From Acidobacteriota bacterium (GTDB taxonomy: Bacteria > Acidobacteriota > Vicinamibacteria > Vicinamibacterales > UBA823), in assembly GCA_002717745.1 (NCBI GenBank), contig PBBF01000043.1, positions 1 through 42,823 of the forward strand: 42,823 nt of DNA. Reading direction: 5' to 3'. The position numbers and the translations under genes were made by a program. Positions 6,582-30,297 of this stretch are shown here, piece by piece. The notes under the pieces were generated by a model, which worked only from the letters and a program-made list of their open reading frames with translations, did no database searches and was not told the origin of the DNA. The number at the start of each line of letters is the position of its first letter. The stretch's first letter is position 1.

Positions 6582-9500
6582 CTACGGCAGGGGTACGACT
6601 CCCGCGAGGCCTCGTTCCTCCAGCGCCCGGTTAAATTCGACGAGAGCACCTGTTCGGACACCGTCCATTTGCAGCTCGTAGGTGTCGAGTAGCTCCCTGT
6701 AGTTTTCGAGCACCTCACGTTGCTGGGTAGTCGGTGGAAAGTCCGTTTGTCCGACATAGCCGGCGAGACTGCTTAGCTTCGCCAGCAGTTGGCGCGGCCA
6801 ACGGACCGAATCTTGGCGCGCTGAGCCGCCCGACAACCGTTGATCGCTTAACCTCATCTCAATCGCGAGCAACCGCTCATCCAGGGACCTAGCTGCATCA
6901 ATAATCAAATCATTGTCACGATGGTCATGCACCCGCCGACCTATATCGGCAACCTGTTCACGGACCGACTCGATCTCATTGATGAGCGACACGGCATCGT
7001 TCAGCATATTCCTCAGGTCAACAAGCAACGCCATCTGCGCTGCGATATCTCCCTCGGAGCCCGCCGAGTGCGGGTCCTTGAGAACCGTGAGCGCCTGAAC
7101 GAGTTCAGTGTCACCCAGTCTGAGCCTGACCGTGTATTTGCCGGGCGGCGCGAGAATAGCGACGCGACTGCCATCGCCCACGGGCCGTAATCCTCGATCA
7201 AGGTCAGCCCGCACGTGTGAGTGTTCAAAAGCGGGCATCCGCAGTTGCGGTTCATCAGTTTGGTCGTAGCGGAGATCCCAATGGACACGGTTGATACCCG
7301 CCGCCGACGGCAGTCCCGACAGTGACCGCACTGCTTCTTCGTCCGCATTAAGAATCGTAATGTTTAGGTTCTCGTCATCACCAAGTTCCTTGGGCAGATA
7401 GTAGTGTAGCGCTGCGCCGTATCCCGGATTGGTGCCGGCCCCAGAATCCTCTGGCTGACTCATCGTGCTCTCTCGGGTACGAAAGCGGTAGGTTGGCCGA
7501 GGCTCAAACAGATGCACGGCCATATCGAGCACCTCAGAGTAAATCTGTTGCAGTGGCGTGATGTCATCGAGAATCCAGAAACCACGCCCATACGTGCCAA
7601 CGACCAAGTCGTTGAAATGTGGCTGAATCGTCAGCCAGTGGACCGGCGCATGGGGTAGGTTGGTTTGTAAGGGTAGCCACCGGGCACCATCATCGAACGA
7701 TACGTAGACCGCGTTTTCAGTGCCAGCATAAAGTAGCCCTGGCCTAACAGGATCCTCCCGAACAACGTGGACGCTACTAAAAACGCTGGCAGGAATATTG
7801 CTACTAATCTGCGTCCAACTATTGCCATAGTCAGAGGTCTTGTAGATATAGGGGTTGAAATTGTTTACCTGATGAAAGTCGACGCTAATGTAAGCGGTAC
7901 CGGCATTGTGACCCGATGGTTCAATGTTACTTACCGTACCCCACGGCGGTAAACCGGAGATGTTGGCAGTGACATTGTCCCAACGATTGCCTCCATCGCG
8001 CGTCACATGAACTAAGCCGTCGTTTGAGCCGACCCAGATTAATCCCTCCTCAAGGGATGATTCGCCAATGGCAAATAGCACCGCGGCGTAAGTCGGACTC
8101 ACGTCCTCGGCCGTCAGGCCACCCGTCTTCTGTTGTTTACTCTTGTCGTTGGTCGTCAGGTCAGGACTGATCATTCGCCAGTTCTGTCCACCGTCAGTCG
8201 TCATATGCACGTACTGGCTACCGACATACACACGGTTGTGGTCGTGTGGTGAAATGGCAATCGGAAAGGTCCACTGGAAGCGGTACGGCAGATCCGCTGC
8301 CGCCCACCCTTCAGGGTTATCCGGCCAAACGCTGACGTTGCGTGCGTGCCCGGTCTTGAGGTCGTAGCGCTCGAGAATGCCATCGTAGCAACCTGACCAA
8401 ACGATGTCGTTCTCCACTGGGTCGGGAATGGCAAACCCGGACTCGCACCCACCCACCGAGTGCATAAGTCCGATCGGGATACCGTTGGACTGCAGGCTGT
8501 TGCTTGGCACGCGCGCTGACGGACCGTCTTGGCGGTTGCCGTAGACGTAATAGGGAACTTGGTTGTCGGTGTAGGCGTGGTACATCTGAGCGATCGGTAG
8601 GCGCGGCCGCCACCAGCTCTGACCTCGGGTTGTCGAAATGGACGCACCACCGTCATGGCCGACGATCATTCGATCGGGCAGCAGGGGGTCGATCCACATA
8701 TCGTGATTGTCGCCACCCGCCGTACCACGTTCAGTCGTGATACCTCCATCAAGTGAAACCGAGTGACGCGTCGACAGGAAGTGGATCTCGTCACGATCGT
8801 CTGGGGCAACAGCTGCCCGCGTATAGTAGAGCGGTCTCTGCGCGAGGGTGTGGTCCGCGTTCACCATCCGCCACTGCCTTCCTCCATCGTCTGAGCGCCA
8901 GAGCACGCCTTCGTGATCATCCAACTCCACATAGTCAGCGTTTGAGTTCGTCTCGATGAGCGCGTAGATGCGGTTCGAGTCGTCTGGTGTCATCGCCAGG
9001 CCGATCTTACCGATCGGCTTTTCGGGGAGACCGGCGCCGATGAGTTCCTCCCAGGTTGCGCCGCCGTCGCGCGATGTCCAAAGACCACTTCCAGGTCCGC
9101 CGCTCTCACGGCCCCATGTTTGTATTACCAGCTGCCACATTCCCGCAAAGAGGATCCTGGGGTTGTTCGGGTCCATCACAATATCCGAGGCCCCGGTATG
9201 TTCATCGACGAACAGTACGTGTTCCCACGTCTCACCGCCGTCAGTCGTACGAAACACACCACGCGTCTGCTGGGGGCCATAGCTGTGGCCCATGGCCGCG
9301 GCGAAAACAATATCCGGGTTGGTTGGGTGGATCACGATCCGGCCAATGCGGCCCGTCGCATCTAATCCCATCTGCCGCCATGTTTTGCCAGCGTCGGTGG
9401 ATTTGTAGATGCCGTCACCGTGCGAAATGTTGCTGCGAATGAATGTTTCACCTGTGCCCGCCCAGATAACGTTCGGATTCACCGTTTCGATCGCCAAAGC

Positions 9501-9794
9501 ACCAATCGATGCTGCTGGCTGATCATCAAAAACCGGTTCCCAGTGGATGCCGCCGTCTACAGACTTGAAGATCCCGCCCGAAGCAGCACCGATATAGTAG
9601 ACATTAGGATCTCCCGGCACGCCAACGACAGCACTGACCCTATTACCGACTGGACCGATATGGCGATATTCAAGGCCAGCGAATATTGTTGGATCGTATT
9701 CTGTGGGCTGCTGTGCAACCCCCTGCGACGCACCGAAATGCACCAACGGTAAGCCGAACGCAACTAGTCGAAGGAACGGTACTATGTGCGACAT
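6582..9794 (-). CDS. VPS10/sortilin-type BNR-repeat exported protein
   Basis: This 1070-residue protein begins with a signal peptide (cleavage near GVAQQ). Many BNR/Asp-box motifs follow, of the form SxDxGxxW: SVDGGIHWEP, STDAGKTWRQ, TTDGGETWEH, SRDGGATWEE, SDDGGRQWRM, TTDGGQNWRM, TRDGGNRWDN, SDYGNSWTQ and SFDDGARWLP. These build one or two large beta-propellers of the sortilin/VPS10 class. The last 300 or so residues form a separate beta domain, then an alpha-helical tail (about 940-1065). Such proteins are abundant in Acidobacteriota and Bacteroidota and are often called glycosyl hydrolases, but no catalytic residues can be assigned. GGAGA precedes the ATG. Function unknown; probably surface binding or protein folding. 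Confidence 0.88.
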   Translation of the reverse strand: MSHIVPFLRLVAFGLPLVHFGASQGVAQQPTEYDPTIFAGLEYRHIGPVGNRVSAVVGVPGDPNVYYIGAASGGIFKSVDGGIHWEPVFDDQPAASIGALAIETVNPNVIWAGTGETFIRSNISHGDGIYKSTDAGKTWRQMGLDATGRIGRIVIHPTNPDIVFAAAMGHSYGPQQTRGVFRTTDGGETWEHVLFVDEHTGASDIVMDPNNPRILFAGMWQLVIQTWGRESGGPGSGLWTSRDGGATWEELIGAGLPEKPIGKIGLAMTPDDSNRIYALIETNSNADYVELDDHEGVLWRSDDGGRQWRMVNADHTLAQRPLYYTRAAVAPDDRDEIHFLSTRHSVSLDGGITTERGTAGGDNHDMWIDPLLPDRMIVGHDGGASISTTRGQSWWRPRLPIAQMYHAYTDNQVPYYVYGNRQDGPSARVPSNSLQSNGIPIGLMHSVGGCESGFAIPDPVENDIVWSGCYDGILERYDLKTGHARNVSVWPDNPEGWAAADLPYRFQWTFPIAISPHDHNRVYVGSQYVHMTTDGGQNWRMISPDLTTNDKSKQQKTGGLTAEDVSPTYAAVLFAIGESSLEEGLIWVGSNDGLVHVTRDGGNRWDNVTANISGLPPWGTVSNIEPSGHNAGTAYISVDFHQVNNFNPYIYKTSDYGNSWTQISSNIPASVFSSVHVVREDPVRPGLLYAGTENAVYVSFDDGARWLPLQTNLPHAPVHWLTIQPHFNDLVVGTYGRGFWILDDITPLQQIYSEVLDMAVHLFEPRPTYRFRTRESTMSQPEDSGAGTNPGYGAALHYYLPKELGDDENLNITILNADEEAVRSLSGLPSAAGINRVHWDLRYDQTDEPQLRMPAFEHSHVRADLDRGLRPVGDGSRVAILAPPGKYTVRLRLGDTELVQALTVLKDPHSAGSEGDIAAQMALLVDLRNMLNDAVSLINEIESVREQVADIGRRVHDHRDNDLIIDAARSLDERLLAIEMRLSDQRLSGGSARQDSVRWPRQLLAKLSSLAGYVGQTDFPPTTQQREVLENYRELLDTYELQMDGVRTGALVEFNRALEERGLAGVVPLP

Positions 9795-10004
9795 CGAGTT
9801 TCTCCGAATCGAAAATGAGGTGAGTGGCCTACTATACTCGGACGCGCGCGTAGCACGGCAACAATCAATGATGCAGCGAAGACACCTGTCCGTGGTTGAC
9901 GACCGGTTTCGCTTGTTAGAGGAATCCCGGCCTAGGCAACGCCCGGTTCAGAACCCCCAGGTGGGGTTGACCCGCAACCCTCGTATGACGGATCCTGAGA
10001 CATC

Positions 10005-12931: not shown

Positions 12932-15900
12932 TTATCGTGTGCCGGGCGACTTCTGGATGGCCAATGCCTGCCGGCTAAGCCTAATGTATTCGATTTGATC
13001 CTCGTCAGTCGGCGGATTCTCCATGCCAGCCTGCCACGCAGCCCGGGCCGCGTCATCTTGTCCCATAGCCTCGAGGGCACGACCCTTCCAGTACTGAGCT
13101 CTCGCCTCATGAGGTTGCGACGGCTGCCCAGCGTTCAGGTTTGTCGGATAGGTTAGTGCACGTTCAAAATCTTCGAGTGCTCCGAATGCGTCGTTGCTAT
13201 CAAGCCTGAGAATACCTCGCTCGATGTGAGTATTAGAAAAAATGGTCCAGGTATCACTGTCACCTTCTCGATTGGAGAACGTCGTCCGGTCAAGTAGCTC
13301 GATCGCGTCGTCGTAACGACTGACGTTAAGGTAAGTGCGCGCTAGAAGGACGGTTGCATCAGCACGCCGACGGGGAGTTGATGGCATTCTCTCAAGGAGG
13401 TCAATCGCCGTGGTCGGGAAATGGCGCGCGATGTGTAACTGCGCAAGGTCGCGGTGAAGGGTCTGGTCAGACGGCCGTGCAACGATTGCCGCTGTGTACC
13501 ACTCGACAGCGGCGTCGAGATCGCCAGCTACTCGCCAGTTATACAGCCCGAGATTGCGACGGGCAACGCTCAAGCTCAAATCGCGATCGGCGGCCTCTCG
13601 CCAAGATTGGGCCGCTTCATCGAGCCGACCGAGGCCTGCAAGAAGATTGCCAAGATACTCACGCGCGCGCGCATCATCGGGTGTTTCTCGGACAGCGTAC
13701 TCCAACACATCTATCGTTTCTGGCCGCGACGGGAAAACGTAGTCCCGCTTTAAGCCGGCCGCACGGTCAAGATATTTTCTGGCTATCGTCCTATTACCTA
13801 CACGCGACTCGTAGTAGGCCAGATAGTAGAAAGGCAACGGCCGGTGTTCACTAGTGGGGACTCCCTCAACCATCGTCACCGACAATAGATCGGCAGCCTC
13901 GCGGTACAGTCCAAGGTCTGCAAAAGTCAAACTCAGTTCAAGAAATGTAAACTCTTTCTCGCCAACGTAAGCACGTGCTTCTGCGGCAAAGTCGGCTGCG
14001 CTAACCTCACCCAGTAACGCCAAGATTGCTCGTGGCACGAGTCGGGTTGTGCCGGTTCGGATCGGTGAGAGCGCGATCCCCGTAGCTTGGGGCCATCGTT
14101 CCGTGTCGTAGGCCGCTATGAGCATTTGTTCGAGGAGACGGATACGGTCACGGCCACCGCGGTCGAACCCTCGACTGAAAGACAGAAGCGCCGCCTCGCG
14201 GTGCCCGGCACGCATTTGCGCTCGCCCAATGAGGCCAAAACCGAGTTCAGCCATCTCAGGTTGGCGCGTCGCCACGTAACCCAGTCGTAGTGCCTCCTCC
14301 AGATCGCCCAGTTGAAGCCTTGTGACGCCGAGTAAGTAGGCGGCCATGCCGTTGGTTGCGTCGCGTTTGAGCGCTCGTTCCAGCCGCGCGGCCGCCACCT
14401 CGTATAGACCGGCCTCCGTGTCGAGCGCAGCTAGCGCCACGAGCGATGGCGAATGGTTTATGTCATCCTCAAGTGCGCGGCCGTACCATTCTCGTGCGCC
14501 AATGCGATCCAAACTGACGTCGGCATCGTATCCATTCCGGTACTTTTGCTCGACACTCAACTTGTCTTCGGGTGTTCCCCCAAGTGAAACCGGTTCCTCT
14601 ACGTTCGGAATCGGTAATGGCGAGGTGTAGGTGGCCAGCGTGTCACCGAGTTGGGTCCGAACCGAAACTTCAACGGGCACATCAGCATTGCCGTCGAAGC
14701 GGATCCGTTGCACCAAAACTGGCGACAAATCCACGATGTCCGTGGCGACAACCCGACCATTTTGTACGATTGATAACTGCGCCTCTGAAAACTTCTGGGT
14801 CGCCATTACCCTGAACTCTAGGCCAGTATCAGTTTCAGCTCGTTGGATGGCCACGTTCTCAGTTGCGTACTCAAAACCGTCGCCAAGGCCAGACACCGGG
14901 TACCACCACTCCTGCCAACTCACATTCTGTCCGGGTCCTAGCATCCCGTAATCAGCTTGCGTTCGCAGAGGTCCGCTTTGCACCTCAATGTAAGGTCCTG
15001 CCGTCTCGGTCAGCACTCTTTGACTGGCTAAACCATCGCCTGATTGACCCCAAGTCCACGCTTTCTTACCAGGCAGCTCGTGATGGTTGGCTACTTGCAC
15101 AATGCCGTAGTCTCGGTCGACATCATAAGCACCAAAAAAATCAAAAACGCATTCGTAGGCAAAGACCGACGTCGGCTCGGGATAGTTCTTGAGCCAACTC
15201 AAATCACGATCGTTGTCCATCGGCCAAGAAAAGAAACTGGTCCCGTTGTGGTCCGAGCCGAGGGTCATGGGATAGATGAATCGGGTGCCCGGCGTGTTCG
15301 GCAATGCTGTGTTGTTCCAAAAATAGTAGGAATGGAAACCATCGGTCGGGTTCGAGATCGAAATCTGCTCATCGAGCACCGCCCGACCGGGATGCAGTGT
15401 TAACCGCACTTGCCAGGTCGTTCGAAAATTCATCTCGGTGTAGCCAATGACAAGCGAGGCTGACCCGTCAGGGTTTTCGACCGTCACGACATCGACAGGA
15501 GAAAAACTCGTCACGGTGTGTCCCGTTGGTCCACGATTCCACTCAATACCACCCGAAATCCAGGCACCCCTTAGAGCAATTAGTCCCGGTTTAACCACCC
15601 CATTGTCATGAAACATCTGCTCGCCACGGATCTTGTCGTAGACCGTTTGAATCCGGCCTCCGATTTCCGGTAGAGCCATAACTTTCAGATATTCATTTTC
15701 GAGAAACACCCCACGATAGGTCTGGTTACTGCGTTTTGCTGATAGGTTATCCTGCATCGTGTAGGGGTAAATCACCGACCCTTCCAACTCCAGAAACTTT
15801 GGATTTACATCATCTGGGTAAGGCTGATAGGTCGGAATGACGACCTCCTCCTCCCATGAGCGCACCCGCTCCTGGGCAGCACTGGGAAGCACACATACGC

Positions 15901-15937
15901 CGATGAGGACCGTAACTACACTCCAGCTTGATCGCAT
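12932..15937 (-). CDS. Exported DUF5107-TPR protein (paralogue 1)
   Basis: This 1001-residue protein has a signal peptide (SSWSVVTVLIGVCVLPSAAQ). A DUF5107 domain follows (about 25-400), with FLENEYLKVMALPEIGGRIQTVYDKIRGEQMF, GIEWNRGPTGHTVTSFSPVD, and NPTDGFHSYYFWNNTALP. The fold resembles mutarotase-like beta-sandwiches seen in carbohydrate enzymes. The second half is a long array of TPR helices, for example YEVAAARLERALKRDATNGMAAYLLGVTRLQLGDLEEAL and DDARAREYLGNLLAGLGRLDEAAQSW. It is clearly homologous over its whole length to the gene at 17085-20018. No good RBS is seen; ATTATA at 15945-15950 reads TATAAT on the minus strand very close to the start. Function unknown, likely glycan related. 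Confidence 0.87.
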   Translation of the reverse strand: MRSSWSVVTVLIGVCVLPSAAQERVRSWEEEVVIPTYQPYPDDVNPKFLELEGSVIYPYTMQDNLSAKRSNQTYRGVFLENEYLKVMALPEIGGRIQTVYDKIRGEQMFHDNGVVKPGLIALRGAWISGGIEWNRGPTGHTVTSFSPVDVVTVENPDGSASLVIGYTEMNFRTTWQVRLTLHPGRAVLDEQISISNPTDGFHSYYFWNNTALPNTPGTRFIYPMTLGSDHNGTSFFSWPMDNDRDLSWLKNYPEPTSVFAYECVFDFFGAYDVDRDYGIVQVANHHELPGKKAWTWGQSGDGLASQRVLTETAGPYIEVQSGPLRTQADYGMLGPGQNVSWQEWWYPVSGLGDGFEYATENVAIQRAETDTGLEFRVMATQKFSEAQLSIVQNGRVVATDIVDLSPVLVQRIRFDGNADVPVEVSVRTQLGDTLATYTSPLPIPNVEEPVSLGGTPEDKLSVEQKYRNGYDADVSLDRIGAREWYGRALEDDINHSPSLVALAALDTEAGLYEVAAARLERALKRDATNGMAAYLLGVTRLQLGDLEEALRLGYVATRQPEMAELGFGLIGRAQMRAGHREAALLSFSRGFDRGGRDRIRLLEQMLIAAYDTERWPQATGIALSPIRTGTTRLVPRAILALLGEVSAADFAAEARAYVGEKEFTFLELSLTFADLGLYREAADLLSVTMVEGVPTSEHRPLPFYYLAYYESRVGNRTIARKYLDRAAGLKRDYVFPSRPETIDVLEYAVRETPDDARAREYLGNLLAGLGRLDEAAQSWREAADRDLSLSVARRNLGLYNWRVAGDLDAAVEWYTAAIVARPSDQTLHRDLAQLHIARHFPTTAIDLLERMPSTPRRRADATVLLARTYLNVSRYDDAIELLDRTTFSNREGDSDTWTIFSNTHIERGILRLDSNDAFGALEDFERALTYPTNLNAGQPSQPHEARAQYWKGRALEAMGQDDAARAAWQAGMENPPTDEDQIEYIRLSRQALAIQKSPGTR

Positions 15938-17084: not shown

Positions 17085-20018
17085 CTAGCTTTCTGTTTCT
17101 AGTTGCTCTTCACACTTCGAAATATACTCTCGCTGCTCTTCGTTCATTGGTGCGCCAGCAGCACCGGCTTGCCAAGCCACACGCGCCTCGGAAGCTCGGC
17201 TAAGTGCAGTCAGTGCGCATCCCTTCCAATACAAGGCCTTGGCCTCGCGGGGGCGTGACGGACGTCCAACGTGTAGGTGTTCGGGATAAGTTAGGGCCGC
17301 CTCAAAATCATCCAAGGCCCGTAATGCGTCACCGTCCTCTAGTTGTCCACGACCTCGCTCGACGTGAGCACCAACAAAAACCAGCCAATTATCAATATCA
17401 CCTTCCCAATTCGAGTAGGTCGCAGTTTCAAGCACGTCTAGTGACTCATCACATTGGTGCTCGTCGAGATAGGCCCGTGCCAATACTGTTGTCACATCAT
17501 TCCGTAGAGATGGCGCTGGGGACATGCTCTTGAGGAGTGAGATCGCTTCCTGACGTTTCCCGAGAGCAACTAGGACGTTCGCGAGATCGCGATGCATCAC
17601 TTGATCAGATGGTTTGGCCACAACACCCTGACGAAACCAGTCGGCCGCGTCATTTAACACGCCCTGTCGCTTCCAGGCATCAATTCCAAGATTTCTAAAC
17701 GCCACGCTCAACGTCTGGTCCTGTTGCACGGCTTGTTTCCAGTGCCGTACCGCGTCATCTAGTCGTCCTAGCCCACCCAGTAGATTGCCAAGATACAGGT
17801 GGGCTCTTGCATCGGTGGGGTGTCGTTCAATGGCGTATTCAAGGATAGGTAAGGCGTCGACCTGCGAAGGAAAAACGTAATCATCGCAAGTGGTCTGGGC
17901 GCGTCGGAGCCACTCTGTTGCCACGTCATCTTTACCTGCACGAGCCATGTAGTAAGCAACGTGGTATAGCGGCAACGGGCGCACTACCTCGTTGAGGGGG
18001 CCCTCAACGAGCGTTGCGCGTAGCATACTGGTCGCATCATCAAAAAGCCCAAGGTCGGCAAGACACAGACCAAGTTCTAGGTAAGCAAATTCGAACTCAC
18101 CAAGAAAGGTGCGTGTCTCTGTCGCGAATCGTTTCCAATCACCACCATCTACCATTGCAACTACAGCGCGCGGCACTAACCGGGCGTTGCCCTCAGCGAT
18201 TACCTTTTTCGCTAAACTCCTTGCACGGATTGACTCGCCCGAGAAATGCATCGCGAGAATCATCCACTCAAACAGTCGGACACGGTCAAGATCACCACGT
18301 TCGTATGCCGTCCTGAACGTCGTGAAAGCTTCCTGAAACGCACCCTGCCGCATCTTTGCGCGGGCAGCGAGACCCAACCCCAGCGATTCGGTATCCCGGT
18401 GAGTTGAAGCCTTAATTCCACATGCGAACGCATCGTCACTCCGGTCCTGTCTAAGCCGGACAATGCCCCGCAAGTACCAAGCTAGACTCTCGTCCGGTTT
18501 GCTCACTAAGGCACTCGCCAACCGTTCGTCAGCAACTTCGTAAAGCCCCGCCTGTACATCCAGTCTCGCAAGGGCGACAAGGGCTCTAACATGCGAGGGC
18601 TTCGACTCGATCGCCCGCCTGTACCACTTCCGAGCATTAACGCGGTCCATCAACCGGTCGAACTCAACGCCACGCTCGTGCATGTCGTCAGCACTCTTGG
18701 GCTCAGGCCACTCAGTATGCAACTCCGTCGGAACCTCCACATCTGGAATCTCTAGTGGCGATTGGTACTCCGCGAGTAGCCTGCCGTCGGCCGCGGCCAC
18801 CTGCACATCAACTAGGCATCCTGCCTCTAGGCTCAAATCAAATTGAGCTGGGGCGTCCGGAGTCAGGTCCACATAGTTAGCCAACAGCGAGCTGGCATTT
18901 CGTCGAACCTCGAACCGAGCGCCTGGGTGTGCCGCAGTCGTAGCAACTCTGAACTCGACTTTCCCATCATGATCGGTGCGCTCAACCGCAATATCCTTGG
19001 TCGCATACTCGAAACCCGTTCCCAAACCAGCCACGGGATACCACCACTCCTGCCAGGCGACTTGTTGACCCGGCCCGAGGACAGCGTAGTCAGTCTGCGT
19101 TCGAAGCGGTCCACTTTGCACCTCTATATAGGAACTCGCATCGTCCGTGAGCGCCGTCTGGCTCATTCTTCCAGCATCCGACTGTCCCCAAGTCCAAGCT
19201 TTCTTACCAGGCACGACATGGTGGTTAGCACACTGCACCACACCGTAGTCCTCCTTGAGGTCGTAAACACCGAAGAAATCGAACGGGCACGAGTAGGCGA
19301 ATACAGGCGTCGCGTCAGGATAGTTCTTCAGCCACCGCAGGTCGCGATTCTGATAGATCGGCCACGGAAAAAAGCGATCGTGATCACTCGCAGCCTTCAT
19401 CGGATAACAGAACCGCGTCCCTGATGTGTGCTGAAAGGCCGTGTTGTTCCAGAAGTAATAGCTGTGTGGAAAATCAGTCGGGTTAAAGATGGTCACCCGC
19501 TCGTCGATACACGCGCGGCCCGGGTGAAGTGTAAACCTGACCTCCCATCCCGTGCGGAAGTTCAGTTCTGTGCAGGCAATTACGAACGAAGCCGAACCAT
19601 CAGGATGTTCCACAGTTAAGACATCGACCGGGGAATAACTCGTCACGGTATGGCTCTGGGGACCACGATTCCACTCAATGCCACCGGAAAACCAAGCGCC
19701 GCGTAAAGCAATCAGGCCGGATTTAATTACCCTGTTTCGGTAGAACATTTCGCGGCTCCGAATCTTGTCGTAGACCGAAAGAATCCTCCCGCCAAGAGAA
19801 GGAATGCACATCGCTCGTATGTATTCGTTCTCTAAAAAGAGTGCTTGGTAAATCTTGTCCACCCTCGTCCGGGAGAGATGATCCTGCATGGGGTACGGGT
19901 AGATAAGCGTACCTTCGAGCTCAAAAAATCTGGGGTTAACATCTTCGGGATGTAGTGGGTATGTCGGAATGATGACCTGGTCGGCCCAAGTCCTGACGGC
20001 AGCCATGTTCGTAGGCAC
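17085..20018 (-). CDS. DUF5107-TPR protein without signal peptide (paralogue 2)
   Basis: This 977-residue protein matches the gene at 12932-15937 over its full length. Shared blocks include FLENEYI, GGRI..VYDKIR, GLIALRGAW, GGIEWNRGP, SPVDV, PDGSAS, NFRT, HPGRA and SYYFWNNTA. It has the same DUF5107 N-terminal half and a C-terminal TPR array (DARAHLYLGNLLGGLGRLDDAVRHW and others). The frame opens directly into the domain at AVRTWADQVIIPTYPLHPEDVNP with no hydrophobic leader, so the product should be cytosolic. The start could be GTG at 20018 or ATG at 20006; neither has a strong RBS. The CoA-transferase gene ends 22 bases upstream on the same strand, so cotranscription is likely. Function unknown. 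Confidence 0.85.
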   Translation of the reverse strand: MPTNMAAVRTWADQVIIPTYPLHPEDVNPRFFELEGTLIYPYPMQDHLSRTRVDKIYQALFLENEYIRAMCIPSLGGRILSVYDKIRSREMFYRNRVIKSGLIALRGAWFSGGIEWNRGPQSHTVTSYSPVDVLTVEHPDGSASFVIACTELNFRTGWEVRFTLHPGRACIDERVTIFNPTDFPHSYYFWNNTAFQHTSGTRFCYPMKAASDHDRFFPWPIYQNRDLRWLKNYPDATPVFAYSCPFDFFGVYDLKEDYGVVQCANHHVVPGKKAWTWGQSDAGRMSQTALTDDASSYIEVQSGPLRTQTDYAVLGPGQQVAWQEWWYPVAGLGTGFEYATKDIAVERTDHDGKVEFRVATTAAHPGARFEVRRNASSLLANYVDLTPDAPAQFDLSLEAGCLVDVQVAAADGRLLAEYQSPLEIPDVEVPTELHTEWPEPKSADDMHERGVEFDRLMDRVNARKWYRRAIESKPSHVRALVALARLDVQAGLYEVADERLASALVSKPDESLAWYLRGIVRLRQDRSDDAFACGIKASTHRDTESLGLGLAARAKMRQGAFQEAFTTFRTAYERGDLDRVRLFEWMILAMHFSGESIRARSLAKKVIAEGNARLVPRAVVAMVDGGDWKRFATETRTFLGEFEFAYLELGLCLADLGLFDDATSMLRATLVEGPLNEVVRPLPLYHVAYYMARAGKDDVATEWLRRAQTTCDDYVFPSQVDALPILEYAIERHPTDARAHLYLGNLLGGLGRLDDAVRHWKQAVQQDQTLSVAFRNLGIDAWKRQGVLNDAADWFRQGVVAKPSDQVMHRDLANVLVALGKRQEAISLLKSMSPAPSLRNDVTTVLARAYLDEHQCDESLDVLETATYSNWEGDIDNWLVFVGAHVERGRGQLEDGDALRALDDFEAALTYPEHLHVGRPSRPREAKALYWKGCALTALSRASEARVAWQAGAAGAPMNEEQREYISKCEEQLETES

Positions 20019-23560: not shown

Positions 23561-26458
23561 ATGCCGAAGGTGACACGCCATACCGTGCATCCGATTGCGG
23601 AGCGTCTTGCTCAGGAGCTCGACGGCGACGTTCGCTTCGATCCGATGACCCGCGAGTTGTTTTCCACCGACGCGAGCAGTTACCGAATCGTTCCGATCGG
23701 TGTTGTGTTTCCGAAACACTTCGAGGATGTCCAGCGCATCGTCGACCTGACGGCACGCGACCAGATCGCGCTCCTGCCTAGGGGGGGTGGTACCAGCCTG
23801 GGCGGTCAAACGGTCGGCGAGGCAGTGGTAATCGACTTTTCCAAGTACATGCACCAAGTACTTGAAATCAACTTGGAGGAAGCTTGGGCACGAATCCAGC
23901 CCGGTGTCGTACTCGACAACTTCAATAGCCTCCTGCAACCTGCCGGCTTCATGTTCGGCCCTGAAGTGTCGCCATCTTCGCAGGCCACACTGGGTGGCAT
24001 GGTGGGTAATAACTCATGCGGCTCGCGGTCGATCCAATACGGCAAAATGGTGGATCACGTCGTCGAACTCCGAGGTGTTCTCGCAAGCGGTTCGGTGTTC
24101 AATTTTGGGTGTTTATCGCAGGCTGAACTTGCGACCACGCTGCAGAAAGACACTGAGACTGCCCGGATCATCCGCGCCGTGAATGACCTGGCAATCACCC
24201 ATCGTGACGAAATCGATCAGCGTTTTCCAAAGATCCAGCGTCGCGTCGCCGGCTACAACCTAGATGAGCTTGGGCTCCGGAACGGGTTCAATCTGGCCGG
24301 ATTGCTCGTTGGGTCAGAAGGCACGCTCGCCATCAACACCGAAGCACGCGTGCAACTCGTCCGAAAGCCTAAACATGCTGTGCTTGGCGTGTGCCATTTC
24401 AAAACATTCTCGGATTCAATGCACGCTTCGGCGTCCATTGTCACATTGGAGCCCCACGCCATTGAACTCAGTGACAAGTTATTGATCGACTTGGCACGCG
24501 AGTCACCACTCCATCGAGACAAGCTTCACTTTGTCCACGGTAACCCCGAAGCACTGTTAATTGTTGAATTCGCTGGCGAGGAACTCGGCCAACTGAATAA
24601 GAAACTTGACACTCTCTCTGTTCTGATGCGTGACCTCGGATTCGGCGACAACGTCGTTAGGGTGACTGAACCTGTACGGTGCGCGGAAGTGTGGGCGGTG
24701 CGTAAGGCTGGACTCGGGCTCTTAGGTAGCGTAAGGGGAGGCGCGAAGCCAGTCGCCTTCGTGGAAGACACCGCGGTCGCACCCGAGCAATTACCGGAGT
24801 TCACGGCCGCGTTTAGAGAAGTGCTCAATAGGTACGGCGTGCGGGCGGCTTTCTATGGCCATGCTTCAGTCGGTTGCCTTCACGTTCGGCCAATGCTCGA
24901 TTTACGAAAGGCAGAGGACGTCGGAAAATACCGCGCGATCGCTGAAGAAGTTACTGAACTAACCATGAAGTTCGGTGGCACACACTCTGGCGAACACGGG
25001 GAGGGACTCGCACGATCTGAGTTCAACCCAAAGGTATTCGGCGAGACACTCTATGCGGCGTTCCGGGAAGTGAAAGCGGCGTTCGACCCGCATGGCCGGA
25101 TGAACCCAGGCAAGAAGGTTGATGCACCGCCGATGGACAAAAATCTTCGATACGGCGCCGCTTACACAACTACTTTCCCAGTGCCTATTCTTGACTATGC
25201 CGAATTCGGAGGGATGGACTCGGCCATTGAAATGTGCAACGGAAACGCTCGGTGTCGGAAATCGGAAGTGGGAACAATGTGTCCTTCCTACATGGTGACA
25301 CTCGATGAAATGCATTCAACGCGCGGCCGTGCCAACGCACTCCGAGCAGCGATCTCTGGGGGATTACCAACCGAAAGCCTGTACTCCGACGAGATGCACG
25401 AGGTGATGGAGCTCTGCATCGGGTGCAAGGCCTGTAAGCTCGAATGCCCGTCGCAGGTCGACATGGCTAAGCACAAGTACGAGTTCCAAGTGCAATATCA
25501 CGCTAGGACTGGTGTGCCGCTACGTACATTAGCGTTGGGTCATGCCCATACCGTAGCGGCGATCGGGTCGGCCCTTGCACCGTTGTCAAATCTTGGTCAG
25601 TGGGGTCCACTGCGATGGTTGACCAACACCGTTCTCGGTCTGGACAACCGCCGGTCGCTTCCTCATTTCCGGCGCGACACGTTCTGGCGCTGGTGGCAGC
25701 AGCAATCCCCAACAACCCAAGTGCATTCACCTAAAACTGTCGTTCTTCTGGCTGACACCTTCACGAATTACTACGAGCCTGCAGTGGCGATTGACGCGGT
25801 ACGAGTACTTGAGGCAGCAGGCTACACCGTCGTTGTGCCTAAACCCACGTGCTGCGGTCGACCACAGATCTCGAAAGGACTGCACGCACCCGCGATCGAT
25901 GCCGCGCGCGCCACTATCACGCAATTACTGCCTTATCTCGACTGCGGCGTCCCGATTCTCGGCCTTGAACCCTCCTGCCTACTCACTTTCCGCGACGAAT
26001 ACCCAAGTTTGTTGCAATCGGAAGAATCGAAGACACTCGCAGCTGGGTCTTGGCTAGTGGAGGAGTTTCTCGCAAATGAAGCGGCGGCAGGGCAACTGAC
26101 GCTCAACCTGCGTTCGAGAGACTCAGAGGTCCTTCTGCATGGCCATTGTCATCAGAAGGCGATTGCAACAACGCGCGCAACTCATGCCGCACTTGACTTG
26201 ATTCCCGGCCTCACGGTATCTGAGATCGATTCAGGGTGCTGCGGCATGGCCGGTTCGTTCGGTTATGAAGTCGGTCATTACGACCTGTCGGCGGCTATGG
26301 CCGAGCGTGTCCTCGCTCCGCGCATCAGAGCAGCTCCACAAGACACCGCCATCGTCGCCAATGGAACGTCCTGCCGCCACCAGATCGCCGACCTGACAGG
26401 TCGGACCGCCTTACACGTGGTACAAGTTCTTGCCCGAGCTCTCAACACGAGCGGCTGA
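23561..26458 (+). CDS. FAD-linked oxidase fused to Fe-S and CCG domains (GlcD-GlcF / Dld-like)
   Basis: This 965-residue fusion enzyme probably oxidises a 2-hydroxy acid. Residues 20-230 form an FAD-binding type 4 domain (LLPRGGGTSLGGQTVGEAVVIDFSKYM, GGMVGNNSCGSRSIQYGKMVDHV). Residues 240-520 form the FAD-linked oxidase C-terminal domain (YGHASVGCLHVRPMLDL, GGTHSGEHGEGLARSEF). Two iron-sulfur segments follow (CNGNARCRKSEVGTMCPSY and CIGCKACKLECPSQVDM). The end carries two CCG cysteine-rich motifs (CCGRPQISKG and GCCGMAGSFGYE) with HGHCHQKA between. The family includes D-lactate, glycolate and D-2-hydroxyglutarate dehydrogenases; the substrate here is unknown. It starts a run of six same-strand genes. 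The RBS is weak. Confidence 0.9.
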   Translation: MPKVTRHTVHPIAERLAQELDGDVRFDPMTRELFSTDASSYRIVPIGVVFPKHFEDVQRIVDLTARDQIALLPRGGGTSLGGQTVGEAVVIDFSKYMHQVLEINLEEAWARIQPGVVLDNFNSLLQPAGFMFGPEVSPSSQATLGGMVGNNSCGSRSIQYGKMVDHVVELRGVLASGSVFNFGCLSQAELATTLQKDTETARIIRAVNDLAITHRDEIDQRFPKIQRRVAGYNLDELGLRNGFNLAGLLVGSEGTLAINTEARVQLVRKPKHAVLGVCHFKTFSDSMHASASIVTLEPHAIELSDKLLIDLARESPLHRDKLHFVHGNPEALLIVEFAGEELGQLNKKLDTLSVLMRDLGFGDNVVRVTEPVRCAEVWAVRKAGLGLLGSVRGGAKPVAFVEDTAVAPEQLPEFTAAFREVLNRYGVRAAFYGHASVGCLHVRPMLDLRKAEDVGKYRAIAEEVTELTMKFGGTHSGEHGEGLARSEFNPKVFGETLYAAFREVKAAFDPHGRMNPGKKVDAPPMDKNLRYGAAYTTTFPVPILDYAEFGGMDSAIEMCNGNARCRKSEVGTMCPSYMVTLDEMHSTRGRANALRAAISGGLPTESLYSDEMHEVMELCIGCKACKLECPSQVDMAKHKYEFQVQYHARTGVPLRTLALGHAHTVAAIGSALAPLSNLGQWGPLRWLTNTVLGLDNRRSLPHFRRDTFWRWWQQQSPTTQVHSPKTVVLLADTFTNYYEPAVAIDAVRVLEAAGYTVVVPKPTCCGRPQISKGLHAPAIDAARATITQLLPYLDCGVPILGLEPSCLLTFRDEYPSLLQSEESKTLAAGSWLVEEFLANEAAAGQLTLNLRSRDSEVLLHGHCHQKAIATTRATHAALDLIPGLTVSEIDSGCCGMAGSFGYEVGHYDLSAAMAERVLAPRIRAAPQDTAIVANGTSCRHQIADLTGRTALHVVQVLARALNTSG

Positions 26459-26498
26459 TCAGGCATGATACGATCTTCAGCAGATAGAGTTCTTTAAC

Positions 26499-27320
26499 GT
26501 GGCTGGTATCACCTATTCACTCGTCGCACCACACACGCCCAGGATGGGCGTCGAGGACAAAGCTCCAGACTTCGTCCGCGCGCTCATTAATAGTCAAAAG
26601 GAAATGGGCGACGTGGTCCGCGCGACAAAACCCGATGTTCTCATTATCAACTCAGCGCACTGGGTATGCACGTTTAACTGGCACGTTACGTGTCAGGCCG
26701 AACATGTTGGACACTGTGTTGCCGATGAAGCTCCCGAGCTGATCGACGGTGTGCCGTATCGCTGGCGAGGTGACGCTGAAATGGGCCGCGCGATTTTGAG
26801 CGAGTTTGAGGCAGATGGCATTCCAGGCGCTCCCAATGAAAGCAAGCATTTCCAGTGGGACTATGGATCGTGGGTGCCAGCAAAATATCTCGACCCGGAC
26901 GCTAAACTCGCAGTCGTCCTGATCGGGACTGTTCCCAGTTCGGACATTGACGAGTGCCTGAAGGCTGGGACAGCCATCCGGCGGGCCGCTGAAGGGCTCG
27001 GGCGGCGGGCAATCTTCGCCGCCAGTTGCGCGTTTTCACACGAGCTTGTGCGGGGACCTACTGAGTGGCCGACCCACGATCGGCAACAGCTCGACCATGA
27101 GTTTATCCAGATGCTTACGTCGGGACGGATCGCAGAAGCGAAGAGCTGGTTCAAAGAGTACAACGATGCGGTTGTCGGTGAGATGGGCGGCCGCAACCTT
27201 GCAACATTCCTCGGTTGCCTTGATGAAACCTCGGCGCGCCCCTACACCGGGAAGCAGTACGGTCCCTATACACAGTCGTCAGGTAGTGGTAACGCCAACA
27301 TTGCACTCTGGCAGACGTAG
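26499..27320 (+). CDS. LigB-type class III extradiol dioxygenase family protein
   Basis: This 273-residue protein belongs to the LigB family of non-haem Fe(II) ring-cleaving dioxygenases. Candidate iron ligands are His12 (APHTPRMG), His54 (NSAHW) and Glu243 (CLDETSARPY), spaced as in LigB. His180 in ASCAFSHEL could be the catalytic base. The family opens catechol-type rings between a hydroxylated and an adjacent carbon, though some members act on non-aromatic substrates such as aminophenols or lack oxygenase activity. The start is GTG, with a weak AGAG upstream. It lies 40 bases after the FAD oxidase and 92 before the CMD protein. The actual ring substrate cannot be read. Confidence 0.85.
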   Translation: MAGITYSLVAPHTPRMGVEDKAPDFVRALINSQKEMGDVVRATKPDVLIINSAHWVCTFNWHVTCQAEHVGHCVADEAPELIDGVPYRWRGDAEMGRAILSEFEADGIPGAPNESKHFQWDYGSWVPAKYLDPDAKLAVVLIGTVPSSDIDECLKAGTAIRRAAEGLGRRAIFAASCAFSHELVRGPTEWPTHDRQQLDHEFIQMLTSGRIAEAKSWFKEYNDAVVGEMGGRNLATFLGCLDETSARPYTGKQYGPYTQSSGSGNANIALWQT

Positions 27321-27412
27321 TTACTAACTGCCGGTCGTCCAATTCTCAGTTCTCTGGTCTCGAGGGGGCGCGACGACCACTAGGGAGCGCAACTTCTTCG
27401 GAAAGGAACGCC

Positions 27413-27784
27413 ATGAGTGTGCAAGAAGATTACGAAAAGGTTTATACCGAGCTAATTGGGTTTGTCCCGCCACGTATTCAACAACGTATTCGTCTTGGTC
27501 TTGAGGTCGATCCTGAGTTACTACGTCAGACTGAGCAGATCCGTCAGACTGCGATGTACCCGAAATGTTTCGACGTAAAGACAGCTCAGTTGATTCTAGT
27601 GGGCATCCTGCTAGCGCACTTGGCTCCGGCGGCTGAGTTCCACGCGCGCGCGGCCAAACGTGCTGGGGCAACCAAGGAAGAGCTGCACGCCGTGGCTGGG
27701 CTGACATTTCTATTTCGTGGTCTGCCGGCGTTCAATCTGGCGTCTGAGATCATCAATAAAATCTTCGACGAAGAGGTTGCATAG
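27413..27784 (+). CDS. Carboxymuconolactone decarboxylase (CMD/AhpD-like) family protein
   Basis: This 123-residue all-helical protein matches the CMD family, with AQLILVGILLAHLAPAAEFHARAAKRAGATKEELHAVAGLTFLFRGLPAFN. The CxxC redox pair of AhpD is absent at the helix start (AHLAPAAEFH), so peroxidase-type disulfide chemistry is not expected. A decarboxylase/lactonase-type or purely structural role is more likely. AAGGA precedes the ATG. It sits between the LigB-like gene and a thioesterase 15 bases downstream, as expected in an aromatic-acid breakdown operon. Confidence 0.86.
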   Translation: MSVQEDYEKVYTELIGFVPPRIQQRIRLGLEVDPELLRQTEQIRQTAMYPKCFDVKTAQLILVGILLAHLAPAAEFHARAAKRAGATKEELHAVAGLTFLFRGLPAFNLASEIINKIFDEEVA

Positions 27785-27799
27785 GAGCGCATTAGGCCC

Positions 27800-28216
27800 A
27801 TGAAGCATTTGGTTCAGGCACTCACAGTCGAATGGGCGCACTGTGACGCTGCCGGCATCGTGTTTTATCCTCACTTCTATACCTGGTTCGACCAGGCCAC
27901 CGAACGGCTCTTTGCAGCCAACGAGGTGACCTACGCCGCGCTGCGTAAGCGCGGTATTCTTGGGATGCCGTTACTCGAAACCGGCGCACGCTACGAAAAC
28001 CCGTGTCAACTCGGCGAACCACTCACAATGGACACGTGGGTCGAGGAATGGCAGCGGAAGACACTGTTAGTCAAGCACCGCGTCACCCACGCTGATGGGC
28101 GGTTAGCGGTAGAGGGTTTCGAACTCCGGGCCTGGGTTGTCGACGCGCCTGATTCAGCGCGCGGGATGCGGGCTACTCCGATTCCCTCCGATATTATTGC
28201 TCTCTTCGACGATTAA
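27800..28216 (+). CDS. 4-hydroxybenzoyl-CoA thioesterase-family (hotdog) protein
   Basis: This 138-residue single hotdog domain has the 4HBT signature WAHCDAAGIVFYPHFYTWFDQATE, with Asp16 in the place of the catalytic aspartate. The second half (VEEWQRKTLLVKHRVTHADGRLAVEGFELRAWVV) is the usual strand pattern. The family hydrolyses acyl- or aroyl-CoA thioesters. It starts 15 bases after the CMD gene and is probably cotranslated. A CoA ligase (PaaK-like) and CoA transferase nearby could produce its substrate, but the ester is not known. Confidence 0.88.
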   Translation: MKHLVQALTVEWAHCDAAGIVFYPHFYTWFDQATERLFAANEVTYAALRKRGILGMPLLETGARYENPCQLGEPLTMDTWVEEWQRKTLLVKHRVTHADGRLAVEGFELRAWVVDAPDSARGMRATPIPSDIIALFDD

Positions 28217-28279
28217 GCCAGAAAGCTAGTTATACTGGTCTCTTGCGCGCTTCATGAAGAGAAGAATACGAGGGTAAAT

Positions 28280-29041
28280 GTGATGACGCAGGCCAACCAC
28301 AAGTCCGGTCCATTTGATCAGCGAGATCGCTACGAAGCACTAATGGACGTCGTCCGGACACGGATGACGAACCGGGCGTTCGCGGCTCACGACATCCCGA
28401 CCGAACATTTCGAACTGATTCTCGAGGCCGCGAGGCATGGGCCTTCCGGTGCCAACTGCCAACCGTGGCACTACATCGTAGTCCGTGATCCCGCTAAAAA
28501 AACTGCGATCGGAGACCTTTTCGTTGAAGAGCAGCAGACGCGCGCCAAACTGAAGATGGGTTTCCCGACACCCAACTATACCGGGATGCGGACTGCGCCT
28601 GGGTTCATCGTGATTGCTGCGGACTTTCGTTTCATTCAGGCGTTTCCGGTTCTCTCCGACGACTCACCTCAGGCACAGATGTATAAAGAGAACGCCGAAC
28701 GCATTTTGCTTCAAAGTGTCGCCGCCTCGACGATGTCGGCACACCTCGCTGCCGCCTCGCTTGGCTATGCCGTCTGGTGGGTCACAGCGATCGGACAAGC
28801 GCGCATTCAAGAAGTTGTGAAACCGATGCTTGGCGTGCCAAAAGCGCTATCGCTCGTTGACATCATGTGTTTCGGCCCACCACTCAAGCCATCTTACAAG
28901 CGCTGGAAGAAACGACTAAACCAGATTATGAACTGGGACCGCTTCGACCCTGCCAACGCTATGTCCGACGAGCAGATCAAGCTTTGGATTAAGAATACCC
29001 GACACAAAGTTATGTACAAGGACGAGTCAAAGATCGACTAA
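28280..29041 (+). CDS. Nitroreductase family flavoprotein
   Basis: This 253-residue FMN enzyme of the nitroreductase fold shows RTRMTNRAFAAHDIPTEHFELILEAARHGPSGANCQPWHYIVVRDPAKK, which carries the FMN-binding R-x-x-R and SGANCQPW segments. A later LAAASLGYAVWWVTAIG and a C-terminal LVDIMCFGPP follow the family pattern. Members reduce nitro groups, quinones or dehalogenate tyrosines; the substrate here is unknown. The start is GTG at 28280 or ATG at 28283, both served by GAGGG at 28270-28274. An ATG-TGA at 28278-28283 just upstream is coincidental. Confidence 0.88.
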   Translation: MMTQANHKSGPFDQRDRYEALMDVVRTRMTNRAFAAHDIPTEHFELILEAARHGPSGANCQPWHYIVVRDPAKKTAIGDLFVEEQQTRAKLKMGFPTPNYTGMRTAPGFIVIAADFRFIQAFPVLSDDSPQAQMYKENAERILLQSVAASTMSAHLAAASLGYAVWWVTAIGQARIQEVVKPMLGVPKALSLVDIMCFGPPLKPSYKRWKKRLNQIMNWDRFDPANAMSDEQIKLWIKNTRHKVMYKDESKID

Positions 29042-29055
29042 CGGGTAAGTTAGTA

Positions 29056-30297
29056 ATGCCGCAACAGTTTTATTCAACGGGTGCGGCTACGCCCGTAGGA
29101 ATACCGAGCGTCGACACGCGAGTCGTCGGAACAGCCGCAGTGCTATTTGCGACCGGCATGGTCTACCTCACACGGACCGTGCACATACAACAGGCTATGC
29201 TGTTTCTGGTCGGCGGTGTCATCGGCTTACTTCTTTATCACGCCTCGTTTGGGTTCACATCGTCATGGCGGGTGTTTATCGCCGATCGTCGCGGCACCGG
29301 TTTGCGAGCACAGATGCTCATGCTGGCCGCGGCCTGTCTCCTGTTCTTCCCAGTTCTGGCATCGGGTACACCAATTTTCACTGATTCGGTCCGTGGGAAT
29401 GTCGACCCACTGGGTTTGTCAGTTGCAGCCGGCGCTTTTCTGTTTGGTGTCGGCATGCAACTCGGTGGCGGTTGAGCGTCTGGCACCCTCTTTGCCGCCG
29501 GTGGCGGTAACACACGCACAGTCATCACACTTGGGGCCTTCATCGTTGGCTCAACCTTTGGTGCAGTGCACGAACATTGGTGGAAGGCGCTGCCCGATCT
29601 CCCAGCGGTGTCGCTGCTCACAAACTTCGGTCTGATCGGTGGACTCGCAATGAGTTTCGCGATGTTCGGAGTCGTGGTAGCCATCACACTGATTGCAGAA
29701 CGTCAGCGGCATGGACAGATCAGGTGGTCCGAAAAAGAAGAAGAGCCGCGACGGCACGGGGTTGCTCGTGTCCTGGGGGGGCCTTGGCCGCTTGTCGTTG
29801 GCGCTATCGGTTTAGCACTCGCCAACTTTGCTACGCTGGCCCTAGCTGGACGACCCTGGGGGGTAACCTCGGGGTTCGCGCTCTGGGGATCAAAAATGGC
29901 CGGGGTGATTGGATTTGACCCGGCGTCCTGGCCCTACTGGTCGTCACCCTCCAGAGCCGTGGCACTCGAAAACAGTTTGGTCACCGACATCACAACGGTC
30001 ATGAACCTCGGGATCATCCTTGGCGCGATGGCAGCGGCCGGGTGCGCCGGACGCTTCGGTTCGGTGTGGCATATTCCGCGGCGGTCACTAGTCGCAGCTA
30101 TTTTGGGGGGCTTACTGCTAGGTTATGGTGCCCGACAGGCCTACGGGTGCAATATCGGCGCGTACTTTAGCGGAATTGCCTCAGGTAGCCTCCATGGCTG
30201 GCTCTGGCTCGTGGCAGCATTCTGCGGAGGCATCCTCGGCACGTGGCTGTGGCCAATGTTTGGTCTCAGCGTCGAGCGAACCGAAGGAAGCTGCTGA
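29056..30297 (+). CDS. YeeE/YedE-family membrane transporter, probable selenoprotein (TGA = Sec140)
   Basis: The reading frame from ATG at 29056 meets TGA at codon 140, then continues in phase to TGA at 30297, giving 413 residues if TGA is read as an amino acid. The full protein has about nine membrane segments and is clearly YeeE/YedE: GMQLGGG-U-ASGTLFAAGGGN in the middle and GYGARQAYGCNIGAYFSGIASGSLHGWLW at the end. In the family the first motif reads GGC-ASGT, so TGA replaces the conserved pore cysteine. The second motif keeps its cysteine. TsuA in this family imports thiosulfate and uses such cysteines; YedE has been linked to selenium uptake. A SECIS-like hairpin follows the TGA. A plain nonsense mutation or sequencing error is the alternative. 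It is the last gene of the six-gene plus-strand run, 14 bases after the nitroreductase. Confidence 0.75.
29476..29517 (+). promoter_or_regulatory. SECIS-like hairpin immediately downstream of in-frame TGA
   Basis: Starting right after TGA (29473-29475), GCGUCUG at 29476-29482 pairs with CACACGC at 29511-29517 apart from one C-C mismatch. After an asymmetric internal loop, GCCGCC at 29494-29499 pairs with GGCGGU at 29503-29508, closing on the three-base loop GGU (29500-29502). The loop begins 24 bases after the TGA and starts with G, which matches the general bacterial SECIS model of a GC-rich upper stem with G near the loop start, 16-37 nt after the UGA. The upper stem also encodes Ala-Ala-Gly-Gly-Gly, so its GC-rich repeats could be coincidental. 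Confidence 0.6.

Follow-up and report, generated by a model that had tools for sequence, protein, structure and literature searches.

The TGA that interrupts a YeeE/YedE-type membrane transporter gene of an acidobacterium is best explained as a selenocysteine (Sec) codon. The gene lies in a 42,823-nucleotide stretch of DNA, here called the window, and the reading that we favour as a whole (with a probability of roughly 0.85) is a transporter decoded with Sec at codon 140, in which Sec140 and Cys365 would form a relay. Taken by itself, decoding of UGA codon 140 as Sec is close to certain on the comparative evidence below, while uptake of a sulfur species is the function that we consider somewhat probable. 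The substrate, direction, acceptor and actual incorporation of Sec are what we infer from this picture. The gene and its internal TGA are located as follows.

29056..30297, + strand: Sec-YeeE gene, 413 residues with codon 140 as Sec; PF04143 Sulf_transp
29473..29475, + strand: TGA codon 140, presumptively read as selenocysteine; equals Cys91 of StTsuA

The frame at 29056-30297 was open throughout except for the TGA at codon 140 and the terminal TGA, and the read-through protein matched PF04143 over residues 62-393 (E=1.9e-63, 215 bits against a Pfam cut-off of 27 bits). A phmmer alignment placed codon 140 on Cys91 of S. thermophila TsuA, within GGCASG; the motif around Sec in the window protein is GGGUASG. 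A preliminary description of this DNA had reported a single TGA breaking an otherwise open 413-codon frame at the conserved cysteine of the family, and both points were borne out, the aligned cysteine being an essential one in TsuA. Six TGAs in the window have over 80 open codons to either side; of these, the one at codon 140 alone falls within a recognisable gene, and the remaining five belong to frames judged spurious by position and sequence. Standard gene callers end Sec-yeeE at its TGA, so databases probably omit genes of this kind or annotate them wrongly.

Within NCBIfam the top-scoring model was the selenium-metabolism YedE/FdhT family (NF033796; 137.3 bits, below its cut-off of 350), and the TsuA cut-offs (400 and 645 bits) were missed at 61.1 and 36.1 bits. 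The genes directly upstream are:

26499..29041, + strand: syntenic genes encoding a LigB-type dioxygenase, a CMD family protein, a 4HBT thioesterase and a nitroreductase

A same-strand set at 23561-29041, led by a D-2-hydroxyglutarate dehydrogenase YdiJ-like gene, precedes Sec-yeeE. This cluster is largely conserved in the window's family (f1) and not elsewhere. The set next to the sulfur transporter is aromatic-catabolism-like and comprises neither sulfur nor selenium genes, a context that speaks against the favoured reading. Elsewhere in the window, two similar proteins of ~1000 residues are encoded close together on the minus strand (12932-15937 and 17085-20018; translations compared by eye). 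No PF01206 (TusA/YedF/TsuB) was found in the window's genome bin (G000), nor in a further six f1 genomes (G001, G003-G006, G008), four of these six being at least 90% complete and control genomes scoring positive in 11/14 cases. A TsuB/TusA relay is therefore unlikely.

The alternative that survives best accepts the selenoprotein and assigns it to selenium handling (YedE/FdhT type) instead of sulfur uptake. The best NCBIfam match is consistent with this role, as is a YedE-like protein tied to selenium in M. maripaludis (PMC11582611), and in five species of genus g18 (L009, L010, L011, L013, L016) a Cys-form yeeE lies 6-13 kb from selC. However, the NCBIfam score is far under its cut-off, many Cys homologues occur in Halomonas, Rhizobium, Bordetella and others with no selenium link seen in this analysis, Sec-yeeE is not near sel genes in the window's genus, and TusA/YedF was not found. 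Proximity of yeeE to selenium genes holds for genus g18 only, where it probably represents one ancestral arrangement; at one g18 locus (L168) seemingly unrelated genes separate the Cys-form yeeE from selC. We regard a selenium-handling role as possible but doubtful.

A survey of codon 140 took in 100 relatives. TGA was found at the identical codon in nine species: G000, which is the window's own genome bin (1.5 Mb, 62% complete), and G001, G003, G004, G005, G008, G020, G021 and G030. These span three GTDB families of one order, with protein identities from 100% to about 60%, and read GUASG in seven cases and GUATG in two (G001 and G004). All other full-length homologues examined of the order have TGC or TGT at this codon, as do the great majority of the best 80 loci of the genome collection (mostly Pseudomonadota), among which four TGA loci were the same acidobacterial species matched again. 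The preliminary description had proposed looking for relatives of either kind at this site, and both exist. Stops reported elsewhere in homologous genes were terminal. Recoding of UAG as Sec, prompted by TAGs within some homologues, was considered and rejected: these TAGs are ordinary terminal stops, and codon 140 is TGC/TGT in those genes.

Downstream of the TGA, third codon positions take most of the substitutions (e.g. 37/23/125 by codon position, G000 versus G005), as they do upstream, indicating from the sequences that the downstream codons are under purifying selection. The same TGA in nine species, the Cys codons elsewhere and the third-position substitutions together mean that the TGA is not there by chance. 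A decayed gene or a sequencing error, with the TGA as a nonsense mutation or a miscall of TGC/TGT and the remainder inert, might be suspected given that a single substitution turns a Cys codon into TGA and that the source is a metagenome bin. Yet separate assemblies of nine species carry the same TGA, further internal stops are absent, and selection appears purifying on both sides; by these comparisons a pseudogene or base error is excluded, with only a very small residual probability.

The phylogenetic tree contained two Sec clades, one in family f1 and one in families f13/f14. The AU test rejected the one-clade topology, and with it a single origin of Sec (p=0.003), a result qualified by long branches and by a group that was named after inspection. 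Also, one f1 genome (G007) carries a Cys ortholog at a locus syntenic with the Sec gene (L166; neighbours LigB, CMD, AMP-ligase and amidohydrolase shared), and its formate dehydrogenase gene contains a TGA, indicating that Cys and Sec were exchanged within family f1 at one locus. In the same genome no tRNA-Sec was detected and SelB looks split in two frames (G007:C55); an ongoing loss of Sec use or an assembly error may explain this.

Two further residues are relevant to the proposed transport path.

30148..30150, + strand: Cys365 codon (TGC), invariant; equals Cys293 of StTsuA; presumed relay partner of Sec140
29251..29253, + strand: Gly66 codon, standing at StTsuA Cys22 (the third cysteine, TsuB contact); Cys absent in the whole subfamily

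An alignment of 35 sequences showed no variation at Cys365, Gly66 or residue 140 (entered as C). An AlphaFold2 model (pLDDT 86.9) showed helix breaks at 138-140 and, as a mirror break, at 362-365, and its Foldseek matches were the TsuA structures 6leo/6lep/8k1r/8j4c (TMt 0.61-0.76, E 7e-10 to 2e-9), including 6lep, which is titled inactive mutant C91A. In StTsuA three cysteines line the path, of which Cys22 touches TsuB and Cys91 and Cys293 are indispensable (PMC11073785, PMC11582611). In YedE1E2 both cysteines are essential for zero-valent sulfur uptake (PMC10812762). The preliminary description had called the window protein TsuA-type, which proved too specific: the curated TsuA cut-offs were missed, the third cysteine is absent and no TsuB/TusA partner was found.

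Another possibility is that UGA terminates translation and that, with an internal start downstream, the transporter is produced as two halves in the manner of the split PmpA/PmpB or YedE1/YedE2. Split forms are known in the family (PMC11582611, PMC10812762), and downstream of the TGA a 243-residue frame begins with a GTG at 29566. Here, however, the stop would replace an essential residue at the start of the re-entrant helix and leave the first half without it, the strongly conserved ASGTLFAAGGGN would fall between the two halves, and the Cys homologues are single polypeptides. We consider a two-part protein highly improbable.

A candidate decoding signal follows the TGA.

29492..29510, + strand: predicted bSECIS stem-loop, 8-bp stem TTGCCGCC/GGCGGTAA, apical loop GGT at 29500-29502

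The bacterial SECIS model specifies a loop of 3-9 nt with G in the first two positions, a stem of 4-16 bp and a spacing of 16-37 nt (PMC13188914). The window stem-loop agrees with these constraints, having a GGT loop and 8 bp, with the UGA separated from the stem by 16 nt and from the loop by 24 nt. Scanning the window with Rfam gave no RNA family, and synonymous sampling of the window sequence alone yielded an equally stable stem about 5% of the time; the case for a SECIS element therefore rests on comparing Sec with Cys genes. Sec genes keep 7-8 of the 8 stem pairs (mean dG -12.9), whereas the same region of 86 Cys genes keeps 5.3 pairs (-7.1), with a G+C content of 70% in both sets. Wobble bases in the stem region are frozen across the Sec genes (ACC CTC GCC GCC GGC). 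Where a residue does not vary among the Sec proteins, its codon is likewise identical at 5/7 positions in the stem region versus 17/155 elsewhere (Fisher p=0.0005, for a region picked after looking and among related sequences). All Sec forms encode Ala-Ala (GCC GCC) at a site occupied by Thr/Ser-Val/Ala in most Cys forms, a difference to be expected if the protein sequence is constrained by the stem.

The genome encodes machinery for Sec decoding. The window's own bin contains tRNA-Sec with anticodon tca (UCA), SelB (325.7 bits, above cut-off), a SelD with an in-frame TGA at its active site (L163:1460-2548; CxGUASK), which would itself be a selenoprotein, and an FdhA with an in-frame TGA (G000:C16:63766-65628); in four relatives whose loci were read, FdhA has the canonical Sec site SCNRTUHAP. 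SelA was not found in this bin and was present at about 548 bits in three of four sister species in the genus (G001, G003, G004), the best reading being that it is missing because the bin is incomplete. An fdhE-like gene (ORF 8902-9855, named from its sequence) shares a stretch with selC (L165:4967-9855). Among a scored part of the candidates, G008 (97% complete), G020 and G030 yielded no tRNA-Sec, although they have SelA, SelB and/or TGA-containing genes, including the TGA yeeE. A DNA search for tRNA-Sec in these three and G007 was empty, a search of no diagnostic value.

Readthrough of UGA happens in bacteria, but the idea that a near-cognate tRNA inserts another amino acid, e.g. Trp, is the least credible of all, as homologues have Cys and never Trp at the site, the genome holds Sec machinery and other TGA selenoprotein genes, and a predicted SECIS follows the UGA. 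Taken together, TGA conservation, the Cys homologues and the Sec machinery, a search for which had been suggested at the outset, support the preliminary description in its proposal of a likely selenoprotein. The observations that it named as telling against this proposal (a genome lacking Sec machinery, TGC/TGT at the site itself, scattered stops in relatives) were not made.

We propose the following mechanism for the Sec-decoded transporter. SelB and tRNA-Sec would decode UGA codon 140 as Sec, directed by the stem-loop just downstream, placing Sec140 at a helix break midway along the transport path, where Cys homologues have their essential cysteine, and pairing it with Cys365 at the mirror-image break. 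The selenolate could then take a sulfane sulfur atom from thiosulfate, a persulfide or zero-valent sulfur, or a selenium analogue, and the sulfur would pass from Sec140 to Cys365 or in reverse. It might finally be given to a small cytoplasmic acceptor, e.g. a low-molecular-weight thiol, which is proposed because no TusA/TsuB carrier was found. By analogy, these features point to a Sec-Cys relay like that of the two-cysteine YedE1E2, rather than to TsuA-TsuB. The fullest version of the model, a carrier-free covalent relay of sulfane sulfur (or a selenium analogue) between selenolate and thiol, with Cys-to-Sec exchange at least twice using the same SECIS solution, is speculative and, as a complete package, unlikely to hold. 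If true, it would describe a Sec-dependent chalcogen transporter with a mechanism unlike that of TsuA-TsuB.

Selenoproteins of known function are mostly redox enzymes, and a transporter with Sec along its path is a rarity. With one family carrying naturally occurring Sec and Cys versions at a single syntenic locus, the role of the conserved YeeE/YedE cysteine becomes testable: under covalent sulfur transfer selenium should alter rates, the alternative being mere hydrogen bonding, a model reportedly proposed for the TsuA cysteine.

Comparison with known systems places the window protein within a catalogued group. Reviews (2022, 2026) list a predicted YeeE/YedE (PF04143) selenoprotein with motif GUxSG (WP_012471001.1) and credit the Sec family to Zhang and Gladyshev 2008 and Peng 2016 (PMC9312934, PMC13188914), whose main texts do not mention YeeE/YedE (PMC2398784, PMC5029168). 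The preliminary description had left open whether Sec forms were described, and they had been: Sec YeeE/YedE is not categorically new, and the window protein fits the catalogued entry, sharing its Pfam family and Sec in the same short motif, a likeness to one catalogue line that consists of motif and family alone. A plasmid search for the published Sec YeeE returned homologues whose identity did not exceed about 61%. New here are the well-supported acidobacterial branch, the two separate Cys/Sec exchanges and the Cys ortholog at a syntenic locus, none of which was found in the literature on Sec YeeE/YedE examined, together with the loss of TsuA's third cysteine and the lack of a detected TusA/TsuB carrier in f1 genomes.

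YedE/FdhT (NF033796) is the NCBIfam model against which the window protein scores highest, yet it reaches 137 of 350 bits, and no selenium genes are adjacent in the window. With TsuA/YeeE of S. thermophila (PDB 6LEO, 8K1R; acting with TsuB/YeeD) it shares a common fold in which Sec140 corresponds to Cys91 and Cys365 to Cys293, but it has Sec instead of Cys91 and Gly in the position of Cys22, is about 22% identical and longer (413 versus 330-350 aa), and no TsuB/TusA was found for it. The two-subunit zero-valent sulfur transporter YedE1E2/PmpAB likewise has only two conserved chalcogen residues, each essential in YedE1E2; it consists of two separate subunits of about 130 aa, whereas the window protein is one fused 413-residue polypeptide with Sec as one of the two residues. 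YedE1E2 supplies glutathione persulfide formation, with glutathione-type acceptors (PMC10812762). By this analogy, YedE1E2 would be a better functional model for the window protein than TsuA-TsuB.
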